From NCBI GenBank assembly GCA_002049455.2, contig KV919070.1, positions 1 through 64,000 of the forward strand: a stretch of DNA of 64,000 nucleotides. Direction: 5' to 3'. The notes beneath the pieces are model-generated. The model did not search any database and was not told the DNA's origin. It saw nothing but the letters and a program-made list of their open reading frames with translations. Numbering within the stretch: position 1 is the first letter of the stretch; each line of letters begins with the position of its first letter. The translations under genes and the position numbers were made by a program. The DNA comes from Porphyra umbilicalis (Eukaryota > Rhodophyta > Bangiophyceae > Bangiales > Bangiaceae). Of this stretch, positions 6,676 to 55,764 are shown piece by piece.

Positions 6676-7126
6676 ATGCCAACGGCGGCGGTCGCCGCCG
6701 ACCGGGGGAGCTGGCGGGCGGTGCGCCCCGGCGACGTCTTCCCCAATCGACACGGACGAACACGGAGCACTGCCGGCATGTCGTGGCCGCCGGTCGACGA
6801 TGCGCCGCCGCCAACCTCTGGGGGCGGCGCGCCCCCACCCCCCAACCGGCCGCCGCCAACCTCTGGGGGCGGTGCGCCCCCACCCCCCAACCGGCCGCCA
6901 CCCGCCGCCGCCGCCTGGCCACCGACGGATGTGCTCTCCGTGGCGCCCTCCCCCCCCCCCCACAGCGTGCCTCCTAGCCGAGAGGTGGCCGGTGGCGGTG
7001 ACGCCCTGCTGCCAATGCGCGCCGCCGACGCCGGCGCCACGGCCGGTGAGGGCGGCGGCGGCGGCGCCACCCCCCCCAACTGGCCCGTGCCAGCCGTCGC
7101 GATACAACGGCCCACCCCGCTCGCCC

Positions 7127-7166
<40 letters not shown>

Positions 7167-7567
7167 TGACGGCGCGACGGCGCTCGGCTGGGGCGTGCCC
7201 GCCTTCTCGGCCGGCCCGCCGCGGGCGGGGGCGGCCACGGACGTGCTCCACCCCCACCAACCGCCGTCGACGCTGCCGCCACTGTTTTGGCTGCCGACGC
7301 CGCCGCCGCCCGACCTTGCACTCGACTGGCCGACCGCCTCGCTGTCGGGCGGCAGCGGTGACGGCGGTGGTGCGCCGTCGGTTGGCGGCGCCGACGTGTA
7401 TGGACCGGTGTGGGCGGGCGCACCCGAGGCACCGACGGGCGGCGCCAGCGGCGGCGGCGGGGTGTCGCCGCAGCACGGGGTCGGCGCGTCGGGTGCCCGC
7501 CAACCGACGGTGGCGGCAGCCGCCGTCGGCGCCGCGGCCGACACCATTGGCGCCCGCACCCTCGGCA

Positions 7568-7608
<41 letters not shown>

Positions 7609-8885
7609 CAAGCCGTGGTCGCCCCAACGGCGCAGTCCGCGCCCACGTCTCCGACCGACTGGTCGACATCCTCCTTCTTGAGCTGCTCGGCAGAGAAGGC
7701 GACGGCGGGCACGGCGCACGCCCCACCGTCCGCGTCCCTGCCCGCGAGCCCGGCCGCCGCGTGTTTGGACGCCCCCCTCTCGGAGGCCCCGCCGCCCCTC
7801 CTCGGCGCGTTTACCACGTCCGACACGACGACCGTCGCGGCGGCGGCGGCGGCGGCGGCAGCGGCGGCCACCAAAGGCCGCAAACGCCCCGCGGCCGCCA
7901 CCACCCCCCTCCGCCGCCCACAGTCGGCCAAGAACCCGTGGACGCCCGCCGAAGACGAGGTCCTCGCCGTCGTGGCGGAGCGCGTCCCCCGCCCCCGCGA
8001 CCGGTGGGTGCAAGCCGCCGCCGAGCTGCCCGGGCGGAGCCCCAAACCAGCCCGCGAGCGGTACGAGCACCACCTGCGGCCGGGCATTGACTGGTCCGAC
8101 TGGAGCGAGGGGGAAGACGCGCTCCTCTTTGCCACTGGCATGCGGTGCGGCGCGGGCAAGTGGTCCTTGATTGCCAAGGCGCTCCACGCGGCGCGCGTGC
8201 GCGCCCGCGCGCATGCGCCGCGGCCGCCCGGCGACGCGGACGGGCCACAGCTCAACCGCACCGAGGCGCAAGTCAAGAACCGCTGGCGCAAAATGGAAAA
8301 GCGGGGGTGGTGCCGCGCAGGGGGGATCCGCCGCCCGGCCGCCGCCCGCCGGGGGCGGGGGGGGAGTCCGGCGCAGCGGCTGGCAACGGTCGCCCGCCTC
8401 GCATCGGGCGTCGGGGCGGGCGCCGAGGGCGGCGGCAGCGGCGGCGGCGGCGGCGGCGGCGGCGGGGCAGACGCAGCGGCGGCGGTGGCGGCCGCGGCCG
8501 CGGCGCCCGCCTTTTGCATGCCATCGATGGCGGCCGCGGGTGCGGCCGCGGCGGCGCCGCCGGGCACCCCCGGCGGCTCGTGGGCGTGGCCGCCCCCGCC
8601 GCCGCGGGCGGGCAGCCACGACGCGTGGCCGCGCAGCGCCACGCCCCCGACGGCACGCGGCGGGTGGCGTGCGGCCGACCGGGGCGCCCCGGGGGGCTCG
8701 CCGGGCGTCGTCTCCCTCCCCGACGGCAGCACCGCCGACGGGTGGTTGATGGCGGGCGCGCACCGGGGCGGCGCGCTCATGCGCGTCGCGTCGGCGCCGA
8801 CGCCGTCGGCGCGGTGGTCCGCACCTTGGGGGGGCGGCGCCCACCGGGCGGCGGCGGCGGCGGCGCCACCGCCGCCGCTGCCACC

Positions 8886-8929
<44 letters not shown>

Positions 8930-9225
8930 GGGCGTTGTGGCTGTCACCGCCGCCGCCGCCGCCGCCAGCACCGCTGCCGCCGCCGCGGGCGTTGTGGCTG
9001 TCACCGCCGCCGCCGCCGCCGCCAGCACCGCTGCCGCCGCCGCCGCCGTCTCATGGGATGGGGGAGCACCCCGGCGGGCCATGGGGGGACGCCCCGTCGC
9101 CCGACGGGTGGGCCGACGAGCGGGGGCTGTCGGTGGTGCCACCGCCGCCCGACGCGCCCGTCACGGCCGACGTTGTCGCGGCCGTCCTCGCCGCCGTCCT
9201 TGGCTCCGCCCACCCGCAGCCGTAG
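6676..9225 (+). CDS. R2R3-Myb-like DNA-binding protein with long low-complexity flanks
   Basis: Predicted 849 residues; likely a nuclear sequence-specific transcription regulator. A TGA lies directly before the ATG at 6676, so without an intron the start is here or at the next Met (6778). Residues 1-410 are Pro/Gly/Ala-rich. A basic patch (KGRKRP) precedes two Myb repeats at about residues 417-540. The first contains NPWTPAEDEVLAVV and RWVQAAAELPGRSP. The second contains DWSDWSEGEDALLFA and KWSLIAKAL and ends NRTEAQVKNRWRKMEKRGW. The spaced Trp residues are typical of Myb. The second repeat carries an unusual ~25-residue insertion rich in Arg/Ala/Pro between its helices. The C-terminal third is again Gly/Ala/Pro repeats and ends in a short ordered tail (GWADERGLSVV to GSAHPQP). 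Internal tandem repeats lie at 6811-6900 and 8928-9041. Paralogue-level identity cannot be assigned. Confidence 0.8.
6811..6900 (+). repeat. 45-bp in-frame tandem repeat inside the Myb gene
   Basis: Two units start CCAACCTCTGGGGGCGG at 6811 and 6856 and differ at only one or two bases. They encode two copies of PTSGGGAPPPPNRPP. The near identity points to a recent slippage or unequal exchange event. Confidence 0.9.
8928..9041 (+). repeat. 57-bp in-frame tandem repeat inside the Myb gene
   Basis: Two copies (start 8928 and 8985) of a unit encoding RALWLSPPPPPPPAPLPPP, lying in a longer CCG-rich microsatellite. Confidence 0.85.
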
Positions 9226-13442: not shown

Positions 13443-15394
13443 TATTCGCATTTTAGAGCAACAGTACGCGGCCAACACGGTTCTGACACTGTTCAACGAC
13501 ATGTCCGGGAGCTGCCCCCCCCCCCCCTCACAGCTCCAATTGGGGGCATCACCGCACCTGCTGAGACAAGTCACGTGGCCCCCCTTGGTGCCACGATTGC
13601 GAGCGTGCCTGGGCTGGATTCGTATTCAATCAGCGGTCTGATACGTGATGCCAGCTGGAGAGCTGTCGTACAGGGCCGCACCAGCTGAATACGTTGCAGA
13701 AAATAGAAGCGTCTTTTATGGTTCTGTAGCGCCCTCTGGCTGGGGGTAGTACACCCTCTTCCTACCTCCTCGCGCTCTTCCCCCGCCCCTCGCCACCCGA
13801 CCCGAACCGCACCCAAAAAGCCAGAACGAAGCAAAGACAGTGAGATCAGCACATGCAGCGCCCCACCCCCTTCACCGACCGCATCCGCGCCGTCCGCAAC
13901 GACTATAGGGGTAGCAGGGGCCATAGGAGCAAATGGGACTGTAGAACATGGTACAGTAGGAGAGCAATGGGCAGTAGGGCTATAAGGGGAAGTATTGGGA
14001 AAGGAGGCAGCGGAGGGAAAAGAGCAGTGGGCAGGAAACAGGCAGTAGGAGAAGAGCGGCAGTAGGGGAAAAGGTGGCGGCAAAGGCCACATGGGCAGAG
14101 AGAGAAGAAGCACATCACTGGACGGGTGCAGATTTACGGAGGGAGAACGGCGGAGCAAACGATACGCAGTGCACACATCTTACTACTCTCCTTGTCCTAC
14201 TAGTCCTCACGACACTTAACGTACTTGAGAACTAAAAATACAAGACGGGCGAGGGGGGTGTCAAAGACGCGCAGCTCGGGCGTGACGGGATCCGTACGCG
14301 GTAGAGGAAGCCTTGACGCCGGCGTGACTCCCTGCCCCTCCATGCGCGACGACGGCGGTAGCCGTCAGCGGTAGCTGTACCGCGGCCGAACGCCTTTAAG
14401 GCCCAGGGGGTTCGGGGGGGCGGATGTTCGCGAGGGCTGCCGGAGGATGGGGGACACGGCCAGGTGGAACCATTGAGGGCCAATGGCCCACTGGACGACG
14501 TTCCCCGGGGAGCTTCCACGTCGGCTGACCCTCCGAAGAGCGACATACGCTGCACCAATCGATGATCGCCCGAAGCAACGGGTATTCAGAACGCGGCCAC
14601 TGAGGATCCGATCCCAGCCTATGTCTGTCAGAACAGATGACCATTGACCGCCCAGTAAGGCTCACAGTGTCAATAAATGAGGGTCGAGATCCCCGCATAA
14701 GGCGTACCGCCCTCCACACAACTGAAGGTGAGGAGTGCTGGGTCCACACACGAGGCTTGCAGCTCACCACATGGCGGATGGTTGACAGAACACCACACTG
14801 AAGTATGACACCTCGGCTGACAAGTTACTTCTACACCCGATTTAGGTACGTTCTTGAGAGGGTTACTTTACTGTCAACTAGTTGGATGGGTGGCCGTGGG
14901 CGCAGTCTGCAAGCCGGTGACGTCAGTTACTACGAGATGTGACCGGCCGAATGATTGCTGGCGGTGGGTGTGTGTAGGGCATTGACGGAGTGGGGGCATG
15001 GGCGCCCGTGAGCAACTGCGGCGGGTGTGGGGGGGGGGTGCGTATCAGGCGTCGATGGAGAGTCCGTCGACGTTGGCATCGACGAAGCAGAGGCGTTGGC
15101 GTGGCCGCAGCCTTGTTAGCAGATGCAGTCGTTACGGTGAGATCTGACATGGGGTATCACTGGGGGTTCAGTGAGGGCCACGTAGAGCGCAGAGTAGCAT
15201 TCCAGAAATCCAGCGATGAACCGCCGGAGTTGATCCGTGATCACTCTCGTCCAGGCCTTGCATCGAGGCATTGAATCGTCTCACGCACAAAAGTTCCCTC
15301 TCGACCCGGTGAGGCTACATTAGCGATCCGGCGAGGCTACATGATGAGGAATCCCGCCGAATCCCACCGCCGTCGGCGGGGACAACACCAGGAC
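13443..15394. other. Intergenic stretch with a purine-rich block
   Basis: From about 13900 to 14110 the + strand is strikingly purine-rich, made of degenerate GGGCAGTAGGG/AGGAGAAGAG-like units. Weak minus-strand frames at 14232-14770 carry no known domain. Nothing else identified. Confidence 0.4.
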
Positions 15395-15397
15395 TGA
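15395..15397. repeat. TGA target site, left flank of the non-autonomous Harbinger element
   Basis: TGA directly precedes the terminal repeat GGCCCAGTCTACACGGCG. The same TGA follows the opposite terminal repeat at 17186-17188, as expected for a 3-bp target duplication. Confidence 0.75.
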
Positions 15398-15841
15398 GGC
15401 CCAGTCTACACGGCGAGCGACGTGAACGTGATTCGGCACCAATATGAACATAAGTCCGCCATAAAACACGTGATGTGGCGCCGTCTTTCTTCACGGCACG
15501 CTACACCTAGTCAACAGGCAGTGTTCCTGCTCTTCTGGGTTTTGAAGCGATTTGCGGGCCTTGGTTGGCTGCTCCGTCCAAATATGACAGCTCATTGGTC
15601 ACAGATGAGAGTGTCAGATCGGGCATCTGTAGTTTCAACCGTAGTACCACGTGGAGAACAGCACCCCCTCTCACCAACCCTGCCGGGCAGTACAGCGTGA
15701 TCGTTTCGAGAGGCTCTCGTGAAAATCTGGTCGGAGAGAAGCGGTGTTTGAACGGCCCCGCTACTCCGTTGGAAGCGACGCACATCACTGCAGAACAACA
15801 GAAACGGCAACAACTCCGACACTGTTCACGCTGTGGCAGCA

Positions 15842-16384
15842 TTCTTTGGCTTATTCTGCTGCACTGTGCGGTGTATCGCATAAACCGGCACCGCCAGAGC
15901 ACGTGCATTTCCCACAAAAAAGATAGCTGGCGGATATACGAGTCCATGTACACGGGGTTGTCAGAGGGTCGCAAGTGCTCCGATGCTCGTTCTGACGACG
16001 GATTCTGACTCAGAGTACCCCAGTTACCCTAGGTATCATAGGGGGAGCTTCTGGTTGCGCCTTGTGGCGTCGACAGACCCCCCCGACCGATTTGGTACCC
16101 GGGCATGCCGGGCCGAGTCAAGCGATCTGGTGGGAAAACGGGCATAACTCCGGCTGTGTGTATGCATTTTGACTGTTCTTTGGCTCATTCTGCTGCGCTG
16201 TATGGTGCACTGCATAATCCAGCAACGCCAGAGCACGTGCATTTCCCACAAAAAAGATGGCAAGCAGACATACGTGTCATTGTACACGGGGCTGTCAGAG
16301 GGTCGCAAGTGCTCCGATGTTCATTCTGACGACGGATTCTGACTCAAAGTACCCGAGTCACCATAGCCATAATAGGGGGAGCTG
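15842..16384. repeat. Diverged ~205-bp direct repeat inside the non-autonomous element
   Basis: Units at 15842-16050 and 16176-16384 share TTCTTTGGCT, AGAGCACGTGCATTTCCCAC, GTCAGAGGGTCGCAAGTGCT and GACGACGGATTCTGACTC with scattered substitutions. The offset is 334 bases. Confidence 0.85.
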
Positions 16385-16954
16385 GTGGTTGGGTCGGTTG
16401 GCGACCACGGGCTCGTACTTTCGCTCTTTGTCGTCATCCGCCATATTGCGCCCCACCTCAAAAGGACGGCGACCAGGCAGCGTCGAGAGGGAAAACAGGT
16501 ATAAAATTGCCTGCAAGACGAGGCGCGGGCAAGACGTGATCCGCCCCGGATCACGTCGGTCCGCTGCTGATCCGGTGACGCCGGCGACCCCGCTCAGAGC
16601 GGCCATCAGCCGGGGTCCGTAATGGGGTCGCGACCCAATTTTGTATCGACCAATAGAATTTCAGCACGTTGCAGCGCAGCTTTAATTGATAGAGTGTAAT
16701 GCCCAGACCCAGAAGAGCAGCCTTGACCAGGCGTGACGCACGAACACACTGTGCCAGAAGTTTATGGTCAGATCTGGCAGATCGTATCGTGGTGACAACG
16801 ACGCAGCGAGAGCTACGCGGCTGCACCGAGCAGGCGTCTCTCGAGAACTGACGGATCTCCCATCTCTTGATCCGAGTGGTGCAGTCGTGAGGAGCCTTCT
16901 CGTCCAATCATTCCTGCGAAAGCCAAAAGACGCAACTGACACATTCCTTTCCAA

Positions 16955-17006
16955 ACACGTTCACGTGCGTGAGATATTAAAAAAAATCTCGCGCACGTGA
17001 ACGTGT
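16955..17006. repeat. Subterminal hairpin, non-autonomous element
   Basis: 21-bp arms (20 of 21 paired): ACACGTTCACGTGCGTGAGA... at 16955-16975 and its complement at 16986-17006, with the A-rich loop ATTAAAAAAA. It lies about 180 bases inside the right end of the element. Confidence 0.9.
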
Positions 17007-17185
17007 CCGGCTTGAATGCGCCGAATGAGCCTGTTTCGGCTCGTAAGTCCTTTGTGCGCGGGATCGCACGGTCGGCCAGATTGGGTCTAAGATTATTAGC
17101 GTGATTGGGGTGTGATTGGAACGAAGCGCTCCCATTGGCTAGCACGTGTCTGAGCACGCCGTACACGCGCCGTGTAGACTGGGCC

Positions 17186-17188
17186 TGA
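17186..17188. repeat. TGA target site shared by two abutting elements
   Basis: One TGA separates the right terminal repeat of the 15398-17185 element from the left terminal repeat of the 17189-23304 element. Confidence 0.8.
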
Positions 17189-17367
17189 GGCCTCGTCTAG
17201 ACGGCGCGTGCACGGCGTGCACACAGGCGTGCTAGCCAATGGGAGCGCGTCGTTCCAATCACATGCCATTCACATTGACCAGATTCGTCACTTTTACCCG
17301 AATCCGGCGGACCCGCGCACGAAGGACTTACAAGCCAACTCTGGCCCATCTTTGCCGGTTTGGGCTG

Positions 17368-17421
17368 AACACGTTCACGTGCGCAAGATTCTTTTTTTTT
17401 TCTCGCGCACGTGAACGTGTT
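17368..17421. repeat. Subterminal hairpin, 6.1-kb Harbinger element
   Basis: 21-bp arms (20 of 21 paired): AACACGTTCACGTGCGCAAG... at 17368-17388 and its complement at 17401-17421, with a T-rich loop. It lies about 180 bases inside the left end, mirroring the hairpin of the neighbouring element. Confidence 0.9.
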
Positions 17422-18217
17422 TGGAGCTCAACTTGCGGTGCGAGTTGCCATTGCTTCCGCGCGTGTGATTGGAGGAGATCGCGCCGCAGAAGTCAAACTG
17501 GATTGACGCGCCGGCGGTTCCCTGGATGCTGTGCCGCGGCAGCGGCTCCTGAAGCGCACCTCGATGGCACCTTCGGAGGGGGCCTGGGCCACTGGGGGCC
17601 CCTCGCGCAAGTAACTGGAGGCACTGCTGGAGGGCGCACGCATGCGGCACCGTGTACAGCGGCCGTGCCACTGGAAGCATAGCAGCAGGGGAGGTCAAGG
17701 GGCGCGTGTGCCCTGAGACCTCCAGCACGAGCCACTGGGGGCACAGCAGGTCGAAGGGCGCGCCCCGAGCGAGGGGCACGGCAGGCCTGCCACTGAAATC
17801 ATTGAAAAGCGGGGGGGAGGGGCGTGCCGCTGGCGACGCCTTCCCGCAAGCCGTTGAGTGCATCTCTTGCGGTCTCGCGCACGCGGCCCCAGGGTCCCGG
17901 TCCGTGTGTTCCCAGCGGCCTCGAAGCGGTGAGTACTGTGGGCTGCCGAGGGCCCTGCAGGCATGTTTTCTTGCACGCAAGGGGCTCCAGATTGGGGAGG
18001 GGGGCTGTGCGGGCGCTTATTCGCGGGCACACTGGGGATACCACGCCGACCTGGACAGGTACATGACGTTTATGTGGGTGCAAAGTACTCGTCTCGGTCC
18101 CCGGCAACGGCAACTAGCCCGGCTAGCAGACCTTCGAGCCCGTGCTTCCCGAGCCCCAGCAGGTTTTTCGGGCCCTCCCCATCCCCAAGACACAAGTGGA
18201 TCTTGCGCCTGCCTCCC

Positions 18218-19585
18218 ATGGCTCTTCACGATTCTTGTCGTGTTTCTGAGGAGATCGACGCTGGCGAGGAAGATTTTTTTCGGCTCAGCCTGGCGACGCC
18301 GCCACTGGACACCCCCAGCGCTCCCGCCGCCGCAGTAAACCCCCCCCACATTGCCGGGCCCACCTTGCCGATGGCCGCGCCACTGTCTTCTCGTGCGGGC
18401 TCCGCGCCTACCAGGCCCGTCGTCGACCATGAAAAGGCGACCTCCGTTCTCGAGAAGCTGTCGGCGACGGAGCTGCGTACCGTGATGCGGGTGTTACGTA
18501 TCAAGGGCAAGATGCAGGCCAACATGGCTGACAAGCGGGCCATTGCTCTAGTCGCCATGGAGTACCAGAAGGTGGACGACGTGGCGCTCGAAGCCATGAA
18601 GGATGACTCCGACCTCGCGCTGCCCTCTACGCCCTCCTCTGGCGTGGCAGCCTTCGTTGCTCCCGTTGCGTCTGTCACGCCGTCGCCCTCCGGGCGTGCT
18701 TTGGGTGCTGGCGGCTCTGCATCCCCGGCTGTTTGCGTTGCGTCTGCGGCTCCTATGGCAATCACTCGGGGCCCGTCATTTTCAGCCAACGATTTTGCTC
18801 GGTTGGCCCACGTTGTGACAGACCCTGCACACTTCCAAGCCGTCAGCGACGACGGCCGACCTTTGTCGCGCGCCGAACTCGACAAGCCGCGGGACAGCCT
18901 GTGGGATTCCGTGCTCGCCCCGGCCTTCAACAATCAAGAGTACAAACCGGAGCGGGAGAGGGCTGTGGACGGGGTACTAGAGTCGGACTTGCGCGGCATG
19001 CACCCCACGCGCTTCACATGTCAACGTGACGCGTCCAAGCTTGAGACCATCTACCGGGCCATGAGGTCTAACTACACCAAGACGTACGCCAACTATACGC
19101 GCAGCGGGCAGTTGGAGGGGGGGGTGTTCAAGGACTTTATCAACGGGGAGCATCAACTCCTCTACCTGCATTGCCTCCTTTTCGATAATCCCTCGGTCGA
19201 TTTTGTTCTCCGGTCTTTGCCGCAAGCCGCGCAAGCAGAGGTGGGTCTTCCTGGGAGCGCGGCAGTCGGCCGCGGGCCCGGACACCCTGGATCTGCTCCT
19301 GTTCCAGCCCGAAAGCGGTCGCGCCAGGCGGAGGTCACGATTGGCGGTATGGAAGGCTTGACGTCTGCGATCGTGGCTTTGGGCAACTCCGGCGGATCGG
19401 GCGCCAATGACGCCGTTGGGCGGCGCTCGGCCGACGCCTTCGACAACGCCGAGGCCATGGCCGCCGTTTGGAAGCAACTGAAGGTCGCCCGCGCCGCGGT
19501 CGCCGAGGACCCGATGGGCGTGCTTGCTGTATCGATGCACGCCCACTGCGAGTCGCAGCTCGAAAAGCTGATGGAAGCTTCCTGA
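18218..19585 (+). CDS. Harbinger-associated SANT/Myb-like partner protein
   Basis: 455 residues from the ATG at 18218 (context CCCATGG); the frame extends upstream to 17963 without a better start. In PIF/Harbinger elements a Myb/SANT-like protein helps the transposase enter the nucleus and bind the element ends. Here residues ~85-125 (LSATELRTVMRVLRIKGKMQ) are helical and may resemble a SAP motif, which is weak. Residues ~215-330 carry the SANT-like block: LWDSVLAPAFNNQEY, the KLETIYRAMRSNYTKTYANY helix, then SGQLEGGVFKDFI and LYLHCLLFDNP. That matches the W..VL..FN, long middle helix and SG spacing seen in plant Myb/SANT-like partners. A basic ARKRSRQAE near residue 365 could be a nuclear signal. 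The C-terminus is Ala-rich and helical. No stop or frameshift is visible. The domain assignment is by eye. Confidence 0.7.
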   Translation: MALHDSCRVSEEIDAGEEDFFRLSLATPPLDTPSAPAAAVNPPHIAGPTLPMAAPLSSRAGSAPTRPVVDHEKATSVLEKLSATELRTVMRVLRIKGKMQANMADKRAIALVAMEYQKVDDVALEAMKDDSDLALPSTPSSGVAAFVAPVASVTPSPSGRALGAGGSASPAVCVASAAPMAITRGPSFSANDFARLAHVVTDPAHFQAVSDDGRPLSRAELDKPRDSLWDSVLAPAFNNQEYKPERERAVDGVLESDLRGMHPTRFTCQRDASKLETIYRAMRSNYTKTYANYTRSGQLEGGVFKDFINGEHQLLYLHCLLFDNPSVDFVLRSLPQAAQAEVGLPGSAAVGRGPGHPGSAPVPARKRSRQAEVTIGGMEGLTSAIVALGNSGGSGANDAVGRRSADAFDNAEAMAAVWKQLKVARAAVAEDPMGVLAVSMHAHCESQLEKLMEAS

Positions 19586-20679
19586 GTGTTGGCGTGCGCG
19601 GCCACTTACGGGGGTGATGCGAGGGAATGCGTGTGGGGATGGCTCTTTTGTATTTGTAGACGAGGTTGGCAAGGGTGGGGAGAGAGTACGGAGTGATGGG
19701 AGCTCCCCTGCAGTGTCTGGTACATGTGTGTAAACATGCTTTGATTTATTTTGCACTATATGCTCTTGTATGCATCAGCCTGGTTGCAGAAGTCGCAGAC
19801 ATGTTCCTGGATTTTTGATTCACTCACGGGCGTACATGCATGTTTTGCAGGAGCAAAAAACCCCGGCCGCTGACATCGACAAGTGCCGAAAAATACACGA
19901 GCGATTATGGGGTTTTCTATGCACACGCTTTCCTTCTGCAACGCTGTGGCAGTGTATATGTCGCCCCGAGCGCTGTACGCGTCGCCCATGGCCTTCAGTA
20001 GGGTTTTCGGGTGGGCAACGGTGGAGCGGTTGTCGCGCGTCTGGGTGCTGGGGAGTTTAGTGTACCGACGGCGTGAAATAGAAGGGTGTTGCTAGTGGTC
20101 TGAGTGGCAACGGTGACGGTAATCGAGCAGGGCAGGCGTGACGAGCCGAGTTTGGTACCTGCCCTCGCCGATGGCATGTCCCCCCCGACGTGCGCGATGC
20201 CCCCTCCGCCGTGCGCGAGACGACTGACACCTCTGGTGCATACACGGGGCACAAGATTGTCGCCACGGGGCGAGCCTGACCGCCAAAAAGTGGCGCAGCT
20301 GCAAGCGCGGCTGCCGGGCGGCTCCTGTTGGTGCGCCAGCCCGACAGCAACTGCCTGATACTGCTGCGGTTGGTGGCTGTTGCGCTGTACCACGGGGTGT
20401 GTGGGACCAAGGTGGTCCAGCTCTCTCTTCCGGCCGGCGACGCAGACGCACCCGTCTGGGGAGTGCGTTTCGCCTCCTTTTTGTTGTGGAGAGTCCCTCT
20501 TTGTCCCGCTGCGCGTGTTCTTAGTGGCCTTGTGGTGCCAGTGGTACAGGACAATACCTTGTAATATAGCTCTTATCAGGGAAAGAATGAGGTGCTAAGG
20601 GAACAGAGCGCGTCGTTGATAGTAAAGAGCCTCGTTCCGAATGGTCTGGTAGTCACCAAAACGTTTATTGAAACAGCTG
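19586..20679. other. Spacer between convergent Harbinger genes
   Basis: Holds the 3' trailers of both genes. An AT-richer stretch at 19720-19770 (TTTGATTTATTTTGCAC) may serve 3' end formation of the partner mRNA. No other gene identified. Confidence 0.4.
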
Positions 20680-22200
20680 TCAAGCGGGGCGGCGGCACTG
20701 CAGTTGCTTCAGACGGCGGGTCAAAGCGACACGAAGGGGACATGGCTCCCTGTCGCGCCTGCGCTGGCGCAAGCGGTCATCCAGGTCGCACTGGTCCTGC
20801 ATGATCAAAGCAGACGACCCACCCCCAACACAGTCCACCCACAGAGATTCATCAACGCGAGGGCTGCTTCTCTCAACCAAAAATTTGTGCAGACGGGCAC
20901 AAACACGCACAATCAAAGCAGCACACGAGACAGAGAAACGAAAGGGCCTCCATAACACACCCCACCGACCGACAATCTGCCCGAAGACCTGTTCGACGAA
21001 AGTACGCGAGGAGCTATGGTAGTAGTTGAACGAGTCCTTCTCCCAGGGCAGGTTGTGCCCTGGCCAAGGGGTAAGTACGCGTAAGCCGGCAATGTAGGCG
21101 TCGTCACCCGCCGCCCAGTATCCCCGCAACAGCCCATCCGCCGCCGCCAGCAACGCCGCCAGGCCGCTTTACATGAAGGCAGTGCTGTCATGACATGACC
21201 CAGCGGTGACGGTGGACAGGAACTGCACCTTGTAGTCCGCACCCACGGCCGCCTGCACGTTGACCGCGAAAAAGCTTTTTCGTGTCCAATAGGAGGAGGG
21301 GTTTGGAGCCTCACAGACCTGGGGGCGGCAGATGCGCAGCGCGATCCCGTCGATCGCCGACACACACCCACGTAGCAGGCTTCGTCCACCACGCGAAAAG
21401 AGGTCACTCTGTGTGGCGAGTTCTGATGGCGAGGATGGAAACTTGATGTTTTGTAAGAAAGGTTCAGAGTCAAGGGCAGACAGCACCTGCAACAAAAAGT
21501 AAGAAAGAGCCACGAAGAAGATAAAGCAAGTGGCGAACACCATCATCCAGAAAAGAACAATGGGTGGCGACGGAAACGAAAGCGACATGTGGCGATGGAA
21601 ATGCGGCGTTAGCTGTTGCCCGAATTAGGATATAGCATGGCTTGCTCGCGTCACCCGTCCACTTCAAACCACAGGCCGCACTAATGACGCGCACCAAGAT
21701 GAGCCGTACATACCTGATGGAACACCGAATAGGCGGTGCACCGACCGAGTCCAAACGAAAAAAAAGCAATCAAGATATGATGCGCTGGCGAGCATGCGGA
21801 GACAGAAGGCAAGTCGGCACTCGGTGGGGATGCACGCACCACTCGACAGGACCGCCATGCCCTCCTCGACCGCCAGACGGCGCGCCACCGCAGCGTGAAG
21901 CGTCTGGAAATCATCTCGTGTTACACGAAAAAGTAGGCGAAAGTCAATGTCCGAGACGTGGTTGAGCCCCGTCTGGAATGAGAGCCGCGTGCGGGTACCC
22001 GACGTGGACAGCCGCGGTGGCGGCGTCGCCGCGGCCGCCGCCATCGCCGGCAGGCACGCTGCGGCGACAGCAGCCGCCAGCATAGCCGCACGCCGGGCGC
22101 CTTCGCCGCGCCGACGACGGTCGAGCAGGCAGAGGTGGGGCCCGCACCCACGCGTGATCTCGCTGCGGCGGCGCACAACACTCGACCGCCGTGTAGCCAT
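20680..22200 (-). pseudogene. Harbinger transposase (DDE_Tnp_4 type), damaged
   Basis: Reads from the ATG at 22200. The N-terminal half has the helical FRVTRDDFQTLHAAV and LAFCLRMLASASYLD blocks. A run of eight T in the sense strand (21758-21765) shifts the frame. The next frame continues GLGRCTAYSVFHQ to a splice donor, and after a 227-base intron the protein resumes with VLSALDSEPF. The DDE core follows: GCVSAIDGIALRI (first Asp), KSFFAVNVQAAV, GSCHDSTAF (second Asp), then a TAA at 21169-21171. The same frame runs on after it: GDDAYIAGLRVLTPW, KDSFNYYHSSSRTFVEQVFG (the Glu) and RWGVLWRPF. Order and spacing are those of Harbinger transposases. The damage is therefore one homopolymer frameshift and one nonsense codon; sequencing error could explain the first. 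It converges on the partner gene. Confidence 0.85.
21487..21713 (-). other. Spliceosomal intron in the Harbinger transposase (227 bp)
   Basis: On the minus strand the donor reads CATCAG|GTATGTAC and the acceptor TTTTTGTTGCAG|GTGCTG. Both flanking exons are in phase 0, and joining them gives a continuous transposase alignment (YSVFHQ to VLSALDSEPF). Both sites are near consensus, which is good evidence for a eukaryotic splicing context. Confidence 0.85.
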
Positions 22201-23304
22201 CGAGGCGGGCGGAGCGCACCGGACCGTCCGTCGGCGACCGCAGGTGGGTAAAAGGTAGACAGAGTTGGCGCCGAGCGGGGGGGGGGGAGACGCAGGGCCT
22301 AGTGGAACCTACAGGCAGGTAAAAGGTGAAGAATGGGCGTGCGGAAGGCGTCGCGGCGCCACGTGCTGGCCAACCGGGCAGCCACGGAATGGGGGGAAGA
22401 GGGGGACGGCCAGCACGCAAAACGGCGGCGGCAGGACGCAAAAGCTCACGAATGTGTGGAGGGGGTTGCGGGAGGAGGCGGAGCCCGAACGCGGAGGCGC
22501 GGCACACCTGTTGGGCGACCAGGTCGGCACCGAGCGTGGGTGTGGCAGGCACAGGACCAGCCCGCGGTACACCGGCGGCAGGCCGCGAGAGCGCACAAAG
22601 AAGAGGGGGGGGTGGGCGGGGCGCGCATGCAGCAGAACCGTATAGCGGCTGAGAGACACCCGGTGCCGTCGTTCGCATGTGGTTCCCAGTGGTGCAGTGC
22701 TCTGGCGACGGCTTGATAACTGTTTGCGAACATGCGGTGACCAGCAAGAGCCTCTGAACGTGCATGAGGAGAGGAGGGCAGCTGGTGCGTGTCGTGGGTG
22801 CCTCCAATGCACCCGCCGGGGGAGCTGGCGTGTTGGTGGCTCCAATGCAGCACGGGGGGCCACAGAGCTGCGTGGCCAACGACGTACCCAGCTGAGGCCG
22901 ATACAGAGCTGTGTGATCCAATCAAATCCCAGGACTGGGGCTAACACTGTGCAGCACCCTGGGAGGTTCGTGTCCGGGGGCCTCCCGTCGTGTGGGGAAG
23001 GGAAGGGGGGCCCTCGATCGCGCCAGTGGTCCGGGCAGCTGCGGCTGCAACGTAGAGGGATCGCCAGGGTGTGACCAGCGAAGGGGGCACTGCGCTTGTG
23101 TGGTGCCCTCGGGTCCGTGCGCGGACGTTTTCGGCGCATGTCATACAATCTGCCCGTTCCAGCAATAGACGTTTTGAGCACGACGTGTTCATGAATTTCC
23201 TGCTGCCGTCAAGACAGCAGTGTTCCAATCACGTCCGGTTCACGGAGTTAGGTTCCGATTCACATCCGAACACGTGCACGACCGCTCGCCGTCTAGACAA
23301 GGCC

Positions 23305-23307
23305 TGA
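23305..23307. repeat. TGA target site, right flank of the 6.1-kb Harbinger element
   Basis: TGA directly follows the right terminal repeat (ending CTAGACAAGGCC) and matches the TGA at the left end. Confidence 0.75.
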
Positions 23308-23743
23308 GGGCGCCACTTGTGGCCAACGTTTCCACGGGCTGGTGAGAGGCCAGTGGAGCCCGCGCCACCCCAGCATTGATTTCACTTTTTGGGTACAAAT
23401 TCTAGGCCGCAGTATGCCCCAGTACACCCTTTGCGCACCCTAGTAGTGTGGTTCGTAATCGAGACTATGCATCCCAGCTCTACGTGAAACTTTTGCTGGA
23501 TATCCAGCTTTTTTGGCCCCGGGATCCAGGAAAAAGCCGGATCCGGTGGCCTCGATGTCCATTTCGGTCGGAAACAGAGGTCGTTCGACTGATCTGGCGG
23601 CTCGCTGGTGCGGGCCAAACAGCAAGCATCAGTCCAAGCCACCTGATCGAGCCCCCACAATTGCAGCTAGTCAGAAAAACCAGGATCTCGGGCAGTCTGT
23701 TGCCCGACACACGCTGCACGTGAGGCGATCTTCCGCGCCGCAG
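23308..23743. other. Spacer with a short repeat shared with 28.5 kb
   Basis: Around 23496-23545 the words TGGATATCCAG and GGGATCCAGGAAAAAGCCGG occur; the same words appear inverted at 28474-28500 and near 28608. No gene identified. Confidence 0.4.
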
Positions 23744-40522: not shown

Positions 40523-42253
40523 TCAAGAGTAGGGCAACAGTAGACGGCCCCTGTCCGCAAATATGTGCTCAGAGAGGTCGTGGAGCAACGTGAAGTGAGC
40601 GTCGCGGTCCTTGGCCTCGCACTCGGCCCCGTCCGTGTACGTCAGGGAGCAAGGTACCACGTCTTGCTCGGTGCCGGTCTCCACCATGTCGTCTTGGGCC
40701 TCATGCTGCGCGGGCTGCGGTGGCCCCCAGACACATGGGCCTCTTGGTCCATTCTCAATAAAGAATGCCGGTTGGCGCTCACTTGCAGCGCGAGCAGCAG
40801 CAGGACGTCCTTGGCGACTCCCACAGTCCGACTCCTCGTTGCCCGGTCCTCGGCGCTGCCCTTGCAGATCTGCAACAGCTTGTTGCACCTCTGCCGCCGC
40901 GTCGATGCGCCGTTGGGCCAAACAATCGCTCTGCGTGCACTCAATGGCCATATCGTGCATGATGGCCACCGCCTTTCCGGTGTTGATCATCCGCAATACC
41001 GTCGTGAAGCGTGCAGGTCCAAGAATGATGTTGAAGCGCGACGGCATGACGGCGTACAATCGCTCAGCGTCTTTCCGGACAGCTTGCTGCAGCCGGTTGT
41101 GCACGCGCCGCTTGGGGGTGACCGGGTTGGGGGGGTCATTGCAAACAAAGCATTCCGGGGATATCCTTGGTCGACCTCGTAATAAAGCAAGCGACGGGTA
41201 CGGCCGTTCATTGTATAGTTGATGTTCCGCGGCGGCCACACACCCGCGTTCACGTCAATCAATCAGAGGTGAACACGCCAGCACATTCATGTCGTTGTAG
41301 CTCCCAGGAGCCCCAATAAAAAAGTGCCAGGTGTACGTGTCCTCATCGCAGATGCTCTCAACGACCACGGAGAGCTTACCCTGGCGGTCATGGTACTGGC
41401 CGGCCAGAGCCTTGGGGAACTTGAGCCAATGCCAGTGGGTGCAGTCAATAGAACCGATACAGCCTGGCATGCCACGGGCCGCGTTGCGGGTGAGGATGTC
41501 CTTGCGTTTGTCTTCGGTCTGGCGGCGGAGGTACGTCGCCTCCCACTTCTCGGCGATGAGGTTGGTGAGGCGCCGCGTTGCCTCCGCGATGGTAGACGGC
41601 GACAGGCGGCAGTACTCGTCGGGACGGTCGTACGGCTCCCCGAAGCCCAACGCCCGCAACGCCGCCAGCAGCTTCTGGATGGGGAACGACTGCAGCCGCC
41701 CAGTCGCGTTAATCGAGCGTCGCCACCACGACTCATTGCGCACGGCCGTGAAGAGCCGCTTGAAAACAGCTGGCGGCAAGCGATTGCGCTTCTCAAAATC
41801 TCGCTCGCTGTAGACGGGCGGCTCCCGGCCGGCCCCAAAATAGTCATGCATGATAGAGTACGCTCCCATGTCAAAGTTGCGGTTCCGGCTCGGCCTTCGG
41901 CCAGGGCGAGAACCACGAAACGGGAGCTCTTTACCCGCCCGCGCACGGACAGCAGCGCCCTCCGGATGCGCAGGCCAGCATGATATCCAATCACCACGGC
42001 CACATCCAAATTGTCGTAAAATGAGCCATCGGCAGCCGCCACAGCATCCATGGGGAGCGGGCCCGGTATGGGCCACAAAAACCACAGTGGGAACAAGACG
42101 GTGAGCACGACGGTGTGAATGCACGTGGGGGGTAGGACGACGGTGGTCGGGGGCGGTCGCCACGACGGTGGGTGTGGTGGGGAGAGGGTGCGGTCGCGAC
42201 CGTCGGCTGGGCCACGGGTGACGAAATGGGGAGGGCAGTGGCGCGGCCCCCAC
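40523..42253 (-). pseudogene. Plant-transposon-type Harbinger transposase (PF04827-like), frameshifted
   Basis: Family signature in order: MHDYFGAGREPPVYSERDFE, KRNRLPPAVFKRLF, FPIQKLLAALRALGFGEPYD, GCIGSIDCTHWHWLKFPKAL (first Asp), GKLSVVVESICDEDTYTWHF, GAPGSYNDMNVLACSPLID (second Asp), INYTMNGRTRRLLYYEVDQG, then AVRKDAERLYAVMPSRFNII (the Glu) and GPARFTTVLRMI. The frame breaks twice within the core: an extra ATTG in GATTGATTGAC (41255-41263) right after PLID, and a G7 run (41131-41137) between NALFAMTPP and NPVTPKRR. A third frame change is likely before MGAYSIMHDYFG, because YDNLDVAVVIGYHAGLRIRR lies in another frame upstream. The C-terminal ~110 residues after the core are Gln/Ala/Arg-rich and unlike the usual family end. 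This is a different transposase lineage from the one at 20.7-22.2 kb. Confidence 0.8.
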
Positions 42254-52329: not shown

Positions 52330-55300
52330 GTGTCTTGTCACCCATCGCCGCACGACGCGGCAATAAAGTGTCCCGCTGTGGACCACCTGCTCGAGTGGCC
52401 CGATGACGGGCCGACCGGCACCGGGCGTGGTGCCCTTTCGGGCGCAGGTTGTGCTGCCGTGTCGGGCGTGGGCGGTGATGCCGTGTCGGGTGCGGGTGGT
52501 GCTGCTTCGTCGGGCGCGGGCGTTGGTGCCTTGTCGGGCGCGGCCTGTGGTGCCGTGTCGGGCGCTGGGGCACCTCTTCAGTCTGGCATCGGTCGGACCG
52601 CCCTCTCTGTGCTCGAATTGACGAAGCAGCACGTTTTCCGGTGCCGCCGCGCAGCGGTGCGGACGGCCATCCGTGTGAACCGAGCAGCAGTTGTGCGTCA
52701 ACTGGCGTTGGCACGGCGCTCGGCCTCAGGCAGTGACACGGCTCCTGTGCTAGCCACTCTCGACGTCGCTGCTATCGATCACATCGATTGCACTCCCCCA
52801 TCGGCTGATTGTTGGGCACAGGCAGCTGTGGCCGTCTGAACGACCCTTGGTCGGGATGAAGATGCCCTCGGCCGCATTTGCGGCGACCGGTGGCGCAATG
52901 GGCGAGTAGGGATTGGGGGGTCGAGTGGGGACCGTGGGCATCTGGAGGTGCCGTCATCATCAACCGCAGAGCTCCACAATGAATGTGGCGACGGTACGTG
53001 GGCGACATGTTCCAGTCTGCCGAAAAAGCGGCGAACGGAGCCGGATGCGGGTCCGGCGTTCCAGTTGGGCGTGCACTGCAGCGGGGGGCTGCAATCGAGT
53101 TCAGCGGCACGGTCATGCGCCCGTAGAACCGACTGGCACGAGGACAGCGGTCGGCTTGAGCGCGCTGGTCCCTTGCATCTACCCGTCGGTGCCGTACGTG
53201 TCACGCGCCTGCCGGCGGTGGAGCGGCTCCCGACGTATACGTTTTACGTACCGGTGCGTCAGTCGTGGCGGCGAGTGGAGATTGCCCCAAGGCACATGTT
53301 TGTACCCCACATGGGGAACCGTGTTGAGAGCTTTGCTGACGCCGCCAGTGCGGTGCTGCCGGACCGATGGGTGGGGCACGACGACAGCGATGGTAGCGAC
53401 GCGTCGGAGGATGGCACAGGTGGCCATCCCGCCGACTAGTTGCATCTATCTCCCAGGACGCGACGTGCCGCAACTCGACGTGGTATCTGGTCTGTCGTGA
53501 AGACGGTTGGCCACGCGGCGGCGGTGGTGGACGCATTGGCCACCCTGCTTGATTCAAATGCAGCTATCGTCAGGCGCACAATTGCTCTCATTGAGAGACG
53601 TTCCCGAGACAACGAGACGGCGCGCGAGAAGCAGGCATCGACCAGAACCCGTCGCGACAGCCTTGAAGAACTCACTGGTGGTGTGAGCCTAGCTCTTGTT
53701 CTCGGCAGCGGAGCGTCCCTCTCCGTGCCCCGAAAACCTTCAAGGACACATCCAGTTGCCGACTCTGCCGGGACCAGGCTTTCGTTCTGCTCAAGTCTTC
53801 CGGTGCTGGGCGCCCCGGCAGTGCATCGCGACCGTGCGTGCCACAACGCCGCTTTCGATGCCCCGGCCGCCGGTGTTGGCCCCTCGAGCCGGACCTGGGC
53901 AGTTCTTCAAGCCGGCGCCGTTGTGACGTCACGTGAGGAGGGGCTCCGTCTCCGCGCGGACGCGTCTTTACTGCGAGAGATGCGCTCGGCGTTGCGGTCG
54001 CCCGGGGTTAGTGCTGTGATAGCGGAAGCGTCCCTAGGCGGGTCTCTTCTCGACGTAGTGGCTCGACGTGTCTCCACCGGAACGCCCATTTCGGTGCCCA
54101 TCGTGCCACCTCGGATGGACACGACCGTTTGTGAACGGGACACGTTCTCTCGACTGCTCTGCCGCTTTTTTCTGCGCTACGCGTGCCGCTTGCATGGTCC
54201 CCCATGCAGGGAGCGATTGCCAAGTACCCCTGGCGTTGTCCTGGTTCATCTTCCACCCAATCCCCACGTGCTTGCCTCCCTCCAGGCGCACGCGAGGACG
54301 TCGGGCGCGAACCATCCCGTCGCGGGGCAGGACGGAAACTTGCCTCCGGCCGGGCAAGGTGCGGCGGTCCGCGCCCAAGTCGATGTCGGTGTCTCGATGC
54401 CCTCTCAGTCGGCAGTGCGTCGCGCGCGACTGGCCGGGGCCATTAACGGGGCCATCGGTGTCGCCGCCAGTGCGTGTCCCTTCTGCACTTTGGATCCCCG
54501 CCGTCATCTGCGTGGAGCCGCTGAGGGGGACGACGGGTGGACGGCCGACGAAGTTGCTTTTCTTAGAGCTGGTTGCGGAATGGTGGGTAAGCGCGACAGT
54601 TGTCGTCTGGCCGCATTCGTACCAGGGCAGACGTGCCGTACTGTGGCGGCCAACATCGTGGCAGTTGGGCTGCCAGAGGAGCGTCGCCGGTTCGTGACGC
54701 CTGCACTTGAAGACGCGCCCGAGACTGACTGTATTTGTCGTAGGACGAGCGCCCAGATGTTGTTGTCCCAAGCTGCTTCTTCCCAACGCCCGCGACAGCA
54801 GGGCGCCACCCTCTTCTTTATTCCGAGTGGCGTCACCGACGACGATGGGCGTGCTGTGGACTATCGACCGTGCTATCATGTCGGCCGTTGCACTACCGAG
54901 GTGTGCAGGTGCGCCCGGGTGAGCATTCCCTGTGAGAAGTACTGTGGGTGCGCTCGGGTGCGGTGGGTGGGAAGCGTGGACAAGGCGAAAGATGCGCAAG
55001 CGTTTTCGGCAGCCTCTGAAGCGGCCGCCGTCTCTCCGACATTGTCGGATGCTACGGCGTCTGCGGTCAGTGGACCACAATTCGTTAACAATGCGGGGCG
55101 GTCAACGGCTGACGGCTCCTGGGCTGGACCTCTTTCGGCCTTCTGTGCATCGCAATCGGGGCCGTCACAGGCGCGTGGGTCGCGCCTCTGCTCGCGGCGT
55201 GTCTGGTGCTCGTGCGTGGCCCCGTCGCGCTGCGATTCGGATGATTGCCCGTGCTTTGCAGTCGACCGGGAGTGCGACCCGGACGCTGGTGGGATGTGCG

Positions 55301-55764
55301 GGGCGCACTTGTCTCCATCGGCCGCTGCCGATGGCGAGTCCGGTACAAGGCGCTGTCGAAACGTTCAGGTTCTAGTCGGCTTGCGCGCTCGGCTTGTACT
55401 GGGCCGGTCCCACACGCACGGCTTTGGAGTCTTTTCGGCGGAACAAGCGGACACCGGCGACTTTGTGGGGGAGTACGTCGGCGAGCTCGTGCCCCACGAT
55501 GATGCACATGCGAGAGGGCGGGTGTGCGACGCGATGGGTGTCAGCTTCTTGTACACGGTAACGCGGGACGTCGTTCTCGACGCCACTCGAGTCGGCAGTC
55601 GCATGCGGTACGTGAATCACAGTAAAGCGCAAGCGAACCTCGTGCCGAAACTGCTGAGTGTTTGTGGTTACATCCGGGTCGGCGTGTTCGCTGCGAGAGA
55701 GCTGGTACCCGGGGAAAAGCTCTTTTTTGACCATGGATACGCCGTCACCGGCTGGCAAGAGTGA
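52330..55764 (+). CDS. E(z)-like histone methyltransferase (CXC + SET)
   Basis: Three blocks lie in one frame: 52330-52839, 52948-53439 and 53440-55764, separated by TGA (52837) and TAG (53437), so introns must remove the stops if the gene is intact. E(z) proteins are the catalytic subunit of Polycomb repressive complex 2 and methylate histone H3 Lys27. The C-terminal block has a Cys-rich CXC region (YRPCYHVGRCTTEVCRCARV, CEKYCGC, then CSRRVWCSCVAPSRCDSDDC and PCFAVDRECDPD) and a SET domain (GFGVFSAEQADTGDFVGEYV, SFLYTVTRDVVLDATR, RYVNHSKAQANLVPK, GVFAARELVPGEKLFFDHGY). The gene ends near the SET, as is usual. VVDALATLLDSNAAIVRRTI and the acidic HDDSDGSDASEDG resemble the middle of E(z). Block 1 has degenerate 30-bp repeats (GAVSGAG-type). 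The start codon is unresolved; no ATG opens the third block. Confidence 0.75.
54958..55170 (+). other. Possible in-frame intron splitting the CXC region (213 bp)
   Basis: GCTCGG|GTGCGGTGGG at 54958 and CCGTCACAG|GCGCG at 55170 would remove 71 stop-free codons in phase 0. Removal would bring CEKYCGCAR close to SRLCSRRVWCSC, which restores the compact cysteine spacing expected of a CXC domain. The alternative is a Ser/Ala-rich insertion in the protein. Confidence 0.45.

Follow-up and report, generated by a model that had tools for sequence, protein, structure and literature searches.

The stretch of Porphyra umbilicalis DNA analyzed here, hereafter the window (bases 1-64000 of contig C310, which has 91,867 bases; draft assembly of 83.8 Mb in 665 contigs), carries two PIF/Harbinger-type transposable elements, A and B, which abut with a single TGA target copy between them. 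Throughout the genome we found 13 junctions of two such elements with recognizable ends on both sides, more than the target consensus of these elements would predict. The explanation we favor, with reasonable though not high confidence, is a sequential insertion of elements resembling the NuwaII group of PHIS (PIF/Harbinger, ISL2EU, Spy), with the ends of resident elements acting as targets in a manner reminiscent of the bacterial insertion sequence IS30.

Element A (15398-17185; 1,788 bp) and element B (17189-23304; 6,116 bp) are both bounded by 18-bp terminal inverted repeats (TIRs) starting with GGCC, GGCCCAGTCTACACGGCG for A and GGCCTYGTCTAGACGGCG for B. The TIRs of A occupy positions 15398-15415 (plus strand) and 17168-17185 (minus strand), and those of B positions 17189-17206 (plus) and 23287-23304 (minus), the right one having a single difference from the left one. 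TGA is read at 15395-15397, 17186-17188, and 23305-23307, giving the order TGA-A-TGA-B-TGA in which the middle TGA is common to both elements; the boundaries, end letters, and TGA positions of the original prediction were all correct on re-reading. A search for GGCCYNGTCTANACGGCG with up to two mismatches found only these four 18-bp ends in the window, compared with 0.07 expected from shuffled sequences, and with up to one mismatch the same end pattern occurred 179 times in the genome, while the reversed pattern used as a control never did. The matching ends did not prove to belong to some longer, unrelated repeat. The last 236 bp of A and the first 237 bp of B form an inverted repeat with 77% identity centered on the shared TGA (16950-17425), and the 200 bp over the junction (17087-17286) had a predicted folding energy of -91.3 kcal/mol, against a shuffle mean of -34.3. 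About 554 bp of A align at 98 to 99% identity with a 550-bp element in C126; A has in addition approximately 1.2 kb of extra interior, including two copies of a 216-bp repeat (86%), and no transposase was found in it. Element B is organized like an autonomous element, its two genes being arranged tail to tail.

The A-B pair sits in a repeat that has at least 40 other copies and is represented by the left flank (15278-15397, ending in the first TGA) and the right flank (23308-23427), where the same repeat goes on. When the two outer flanks were joined with one TGA, the resulting 240 bases were found unbroken elsewhere in the genome: all 40 scored places, out of 85 candidates, matched over 239 to 240 of the 240 bases with 93 to 97% identity, as judged by span and identity and not by the letters at the TGA. 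A comparison at the level of letters was provided by a copy of the same repeat in C184, in which a 491-bp B-type element lies between two TCA; the equivalent site in the window (23644-23646; TGA, or TCA on the minus strand) is unoccupied, and 42 of 45 bases are identical on either side of the TCA. Taken together, these two observations indicate that the elements of this group duplicate 3 bp on insertion and make it unlikely that the window pair is a product of misassembly or recombination. They also agree with the earlier proposal that one of the two elements had used the target duplication of the other as its insertion site.

The target used by these elements was determined from 222,288 bases, mostly around their ends. 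At up to two mismatches there were 105 ends, of which 94 were distinct once repeated outer flanks had been dropped; ends with three mismatches were excluded as likely chance matches, and both ends of one insertion were counted. TNA lay outside 87 of the 94 ends (TCA 33, TGA 30, TAA 13, and TTA 11), and another trinucleotide outside the remaining 7. Since one duplication reads as TGA from one end and as TCA from the other, the two form a single class, the commonest one (63/94, with 24/94 for TAA/TTA). The 3-bp flanks were identical in 35 of the 41 elements with both ends available, A and B included (24 with TGA/TCA and 11 with TAA/TTA). The center was G or C in 63 of 87 TNA ends, no more often than at background TNA sites (6,058 of 7,795); the frequency of TGA thus reflects the G+C-rich genome and not a preference. 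A TGA-specific target is not supported, given the use of TAA/TTA and these background frequencies. The original prediction of a special preference for TGA in a lineage with altered target choice was therefore not upheld, even though most copies, with TGA and TCA taken as one, are not flanked by other trinucleotides.

What these elements do prefer is a C before or a G after the TNA. We based this estimate on 26 independent targets, leaving out the 6 of 41 pairs with unlike flanks, five abutting elements whose flanks were identical, and repeated flanks. Both neighbors were present in 6 of these targets, one in 19, and none in 1, compared with 566, 2,829, and 4,348, respectively, of 7,743 background TNA sites, which corresponds to relative target weights of 0.07 without such neighbors, 2.0 with one, and 3.2 with two. 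Letters beyond the C were not favored in other insertions (at position -2, C occurred in 9 of 52 half-sites). The target, as judged from these sequences, is C|TNA|G as a preference, as published for NuwaII, whose duplication is given in the parts of PMC4482050 consulted as most likely 3 bp; since TNA with C/G neighbors has already been published for the superfamily (PMC4482050), the choice of target does not represent a new alteration. The three elements at C32:408139, C259:114969, and C65:186245 have the same outer right flank and the targets TAA, TAA, and TTA, respectively, as if one repeat position had been struck more than once.

The 13 junctions comprise four between A/B-type elements, four between an A/B-type element and a member of a third family, N, and five between two N elements. 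Among outward-facing A/B-type ends, a search allowing any spacing of 0 to 12 bp returned three junctions, all spaced 3 bp: the one in the window with TGA and those in C11 and C438 with TCA. The fourth one (C217, TTA) was found by a search with mismatches. Family N, with the end GGCCCGTTCKCAG, has 205 exact ends adjoining TNA. GGCC stood just outside the TNA in 19 of them, with 4.9 expected from the sequence examined, each N-N junction contributing both its ends. With spacings of 0 to 30 bp allowed, six N-N junctions were found, of which five were spaced 3 bp by coordinates and one, at C56:299744-299778, 17 bp, so that eight of the nine open-spacing junctions (A/B plus N-N) had exactly 3 bp. 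The junctions of N with A/B-type elements lie in C6 (one), C11 (two), and C312 (one); in one of those in C11, a 35-bp mini-element that has just 7 bp of its right end forms the A side. Not counted among the 13 are C19:206957, where the neighbor is a more distant relative (72%), and cases in which the other side was known from GGCC alone (8 of the 19 N ends; C129 and C5). All seven GGCC-TNA-GGCC words in the sequence examined proved to be junctions between two elements of this kind; the 10 GGCC-NNN-GGCC words with other triplets there had no such ends.

Some of the junctions are links of longer chains. A three-member chain in C6 consists of elements at 493506-493772, 493776-494716, and 494720-497670, separated by TCA, with GCA in place of TCA as the outermost right copy. 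Another one, in C11, runs from an element at 368260-368810 through TCA, the 35-bp mini-element, and TCA to an N element starting at 368852. This mini-element (368814-368848) combines 28 bp from an A-type left end with 7 bp resembling a right tip and has TCA on either side. A third chain, in C78, is known from coordinates alone: one element extends to 224540 and another starts at 224577, and the 30-bp mini-element between them (224544-224573) resembles, by its coordinates, a counterpart of that in C11. In C18, two N-type left ends lie 12 bp apart (168088 and 168100), and their coordinates fit an insertion at C|TCA|G within the N terminal repeat variant GGCCCGTTCTCAG.

The number of junctions greatly exceeded that expected from the target preference. 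For A/B-A/B junctions, 0.015 to 0.030 were expected with the weights from the 26 targets and 0.10 when CTNAG was required and every tip was taken to be one; four were seen, including that in C217 from the mismatch search. For N-N junctions, 0.02 to 0.38 were expected and five were seen. The suspected preference for the ends of relatives was thereby borne out statistically, for one genome. A longer target consensus was rejected as the source of the chains, as weighting 1, 2, 3, 5, or 8 flanking positions per side gave no more than 0.030 A/B-A/B junctions. By consensus score, four tip targets ranked in the best 13 to 18% of TNA sites and the C11 tip-to-tip target in the best 34%, whereas the median ordinary target ranked in the best 4%. 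Within the window, GGCCTNAGGCC with one mismatch was not enriched (6 occurrences versus 4.18 in shuffled sequences), its sole exact match being the junction.

The spacing of neighboring elements points in the same direction. Among the 174 A/B-type ends listed, the gaps shorter than 5 kb between neighboring elements were 3, 3, 3, 3, and 368 bp. One of these pairs, C217, entered the list from the mismatch search and is hence biased; with it omitted, three of the four close gaps were at the tip itself. Given that 5 kb contains approximately 182 TNA, the probability of this result is 7e-7 at equal weight, 4e-5 when the tip is given a weight of 4, and 6e-4 when it is given a weight of 10. When N ends were added for contigs C1 to C86 (162 ends, the N part comprising 100 of the 205 ends listed), there were eight 3-bp gaps, three of which (C6:493772, C45, and C78:90240) had been added from the junction search and are not unbiased, and gaps of 11, 32, 37, 648, and 777 bp. 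The 11-, 32-, and 37-bp gaps are consistent with mini-elements or with an insertion within a TIR, while those of 648 and 777 bp are unexplained. We also compared 85 flanks of 300 bp with a set of 35 element sequences, 2 of them N-type. Seven flanks matched an element of the set and six of these were abutting tips, representing four junctions (in C6, C11, C19, and C310); C11:382737 likewise abuts an N element but was not counted with the six, that neighbor being outside the set. None of the 85 flanks lay clearly inside a relative, with the qualification that with this set cases inside N elements would mostly be missed. The seventh flank, C317:82115, is ambiguous: it matches a part of the C199 element to which nothing in A was found to correspond, and the match is probably to another repeat. 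Local clustering thus does not explain the junction excess well.

We propose that A and B are members of one group that inserted successively into one copy of the high-copy repeat. The transposase would insert its element at TNA with a 3-bp stagger, favoring a TNA that is preceded by C or followed by G. As the elements begin with GG and end with CC, every insertion at C|TNA|G would restore such a site, C-TNA or TNA-G, at both tips, making chains possible, and the next element would take that TNA to give TGA-A-TGA-B-TGA. Site regeneration by itself gives chains too rarely. By analogy with IS30, which inserts beside its own inverted repeats, the excess may be caused by a transposase complex, loaded with its donor, docking on a resident tip: its active site would already face the TNA, the cut site in excision, and it would join the donor there. 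The A/B and N elements share little beyond GGCC and TNA, yet they form mixed junctions, so that any such recognition would have to operate through the very tip or a shared partner. The hairpin at the window junction is probably not required, because the ends at N-A junctions differ beyond GGCC and should not pair. A more tentative extension, which we consider possible but somewhat doubtful, is that the transposase of this cut-and-paste lineage uses targets of two sorts, namely ordinary C|TNA|G sites and resident tips, including those of other families sharing little beyond GGCC. Docking on tips would then produce chains in which each link has one common TNA; every chain would be open to the next insertion, and its members could in principle leave precisely.

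Several points weigh against end-directed insertion. The target weights come from 26 independent targets that are all A/B-type, none from N elements, and the expectations use estimated numbers of elements and ends (110/200; 130/205 to 200/400). Beyond the sequence examined, most junctions are known as coordinates or short matched text, and some may be copies of one event carried along in larger duplications. The close neighbors in C1 to C86 at distances other than 3 bp (11, 32, 37, 648, and 777 bp) have also to be considered, and chance would place about one further TNA within 30 bp of an end, so the 3-bp spacing taken alone is a weak argument. A family-specific docking would make mixed junctions rare, which they are not. 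Docking itself is a proposal drawn from the sequence statistics of one genome.

The alternatives differ in how well they account for the same observations. One is sequence preference alone, with the regenerated C-TNA or TNA-G sites used at the ordinary per-site rate. The preference is real, the weights rising from 0.07 to 2.0 and 3.2, and every tip supplies one C/G neighbor; we nevertheless regard preference alone as an unlikely explanation, as it predicts at most 0.10 A/B-A/B and 0.38 N-N junctions where four and five were seen, and letters beyond the C are not favored, although its weights derive from only 26 targets. Joined-end intermediates or dimers, in which two linked ends are inserted together, would fit the same-family junctions (C11, C438, and the five N-N ones). 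The A-B, N-A, and N-B junctions, however, combine different families, which is evidence against simple dimers, and we deem this route improbable; the TNA copies within a chain agree wherever they were read, except for the outermost right one in C6.

Similarly improbable is a safe-haven explanation, in which elements pile up in tolerant repeat-rich regions and abutting pairs are a by-product. The A-B chain does lie in a high-copy repeat, clustered insertions of miniature inverted-repeat transposable elements (MITEs) are treated in this way in the parts of PMC3695323 consulted, and there are non-abutting neighbors at less than 1 kb (648 and 777 bp, and the A/B-type pair at 368 bp). Against it stand the three of four unbiased A/B-type close gaps that fall on the tip itself despite the approximately 182 TNA per 5 kb and the flank comparison, in which none of 85 flanks was clearly inside a relative from the set. 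An assembly artifact at repeated ends might be suspected in a draft of 665 contigs, yet the two sequences that flank A and B on the outside are contiguous in 40 paralogous places, and this source is extremely improbable.

The coding content of element B is in line with its assignment to PIF/Harbinger, which was supported by a match to Pfam DDE_Tnp_4 on the minus strand in two pieces. Part 1 of the domain (21169-21588; 8.5e-7) lies in an open frame that stops at a TAA at 21169-21171, and part 2 (20680-21153; 9.6e-11) continues in the same frame past it. Since this TAA separates the two transposase pieces, this copy is probably broken; a C555 copy with 97% identity over the matched part has a 314-amino-acid open frame at the transposase. 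The segment at 21664-22200 (minus strand) may be an upstream part of the transposase gene by position and frame only, with no family match above the cutoff. A candidate intron near 21713-21487 (GTATGT..TTGCAG) was not used, as joining broke the frame. The plus strand carries, in tail-to-tail orientation to the transposase, a 540-amino-acid open reading frame (ORF; 17963-19585), a candidate second protein. It had no Pfam match and its last 455 residues had no NCBIfam match; a structure model of these 455 residues was unusable (mean predicted local distance difference test score of 38.4). A 157-amino-acid transposase query gave at least 109 genome matches, with 150 of 223 candidates scored. A search of the viral_contigs collection for transposase relatives gave 22 pattern matches, none confirmed, and one of solved structures gave two insignificant matches (E values of 0.5 and 0.55).

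Comparison with described systems was based on the retrieved parts of PMC2213677, PMC4482050, PMC12477816, PMC2836001, PMC3695323, PMC9333248, and PMC9604107. NuwaII elements have TIRs of 13 to 46 bp, mostly starting with GG, and encode a DDE transposase and a second ORF with Myb/SANT (PMC4482050). The elements described here are similar in their predominance of TNA targets and identical 3-bp flanks, in having at least one C/G neighbor at 25 of 26 targets, in their 18-bp TIRs starting with GGCC, and in the DDE transposase, present here as two pieces of a TAA-interrupted copy; for the second ORF, comparison with Pfam and, over the last 455 residues, with NCBIfam detected no Myb/SANT domain. In the available text of PMC4482050, the word "nested" is absent and we noticed no chains. 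The classical PIF/Harbinger group targets TWA (PMC4482050); here, TAA/TTA account for only 24 of the 87 TNA ends and TGA/TCA for 63. The plant mPing/Ping/Pong, PIF, and Tourist MITEs make a 3-bp duplication with a preference reaching 9 bp (PMC2836001), and the Porphyra elements resemble plant PIF/Harbinger and Tourist elements in a preference extending beyond the duplication, a transposase plus a candidate second protein, and short nonautonomous derivatives. Among the PIF/Harbinger-like elements of Medicago there are nested insertions and one composite of two related elements (MtPH-M-2-IIa), which differs in being an old copy hit by nested insertions at TAA/TTA targets; the passages available describe no single target copy common to abutting tips (PMC2213677). 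Ectocarpus Harbinger elements share with those described here TNA targets, in one group, and two tail-to-tail genes, and no end-to-end chains are described in the parts of PMC12477816 consulted.

The closest behavioral parallel is IS30 of Escherichia coli, which has a dual target, near-palindromic hot spots or sites beside its own inverted repeats (PMC9333248, in the parts retrieved). The excess of insertions beside resident inverted repeats seen here, known from sequence statistics, is similar in behavior only: IS30 is bacterial, transposes by copy-out-paste-in via circles, and has a 2-bp spacing (PMC9333248). Same-family insertions of nested MITEs in maize and rice are said to be common (Jiang and Wessler 2001, as cited in the retrieved parts of PMC3695323 and PMC2836001). 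Full-text literature searches returned nested MITEs, clustered insertions, the Medicago composite, and IS30; in the titles, openings of abstracts, and passages covered, which do not include Jiang and Wessler (2001), the most relevant paper on nested MITEs, there was no description of PIF/Harbinger elements chained through a single target copy common to neighbors.

Elsewhere in the window, a second transposase fragment matching Plant_tran (PF04827; 2e-21) lies at 41255-42253 on the minus strand. On the plus strand are a 774-amino-acid open frame with CXC and SET domains (53440-55764), presumably resembling an E(z)-type histone methyltransferase, and an 849-amino-acid open frame (6676-9225) with two Myb-like domains amid long proline- and glycine-rich stretches. 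No Rfam match was found in the window at the gathering threshold.

To our knowledge, the choice of targets by PIF/Harbinger elements beyond a short consensus is not settled. With tip insertions far above the consensus prediction, the P. umbilicalis genome can serve as a natural assay of target choice. It makes testable the ideas that a transposase may treat its own excision substrate as a target, that families may recognize one another's ends, and that the resulting chains, some of them long palindromes, could feed the origin of mini-elements and arrays.

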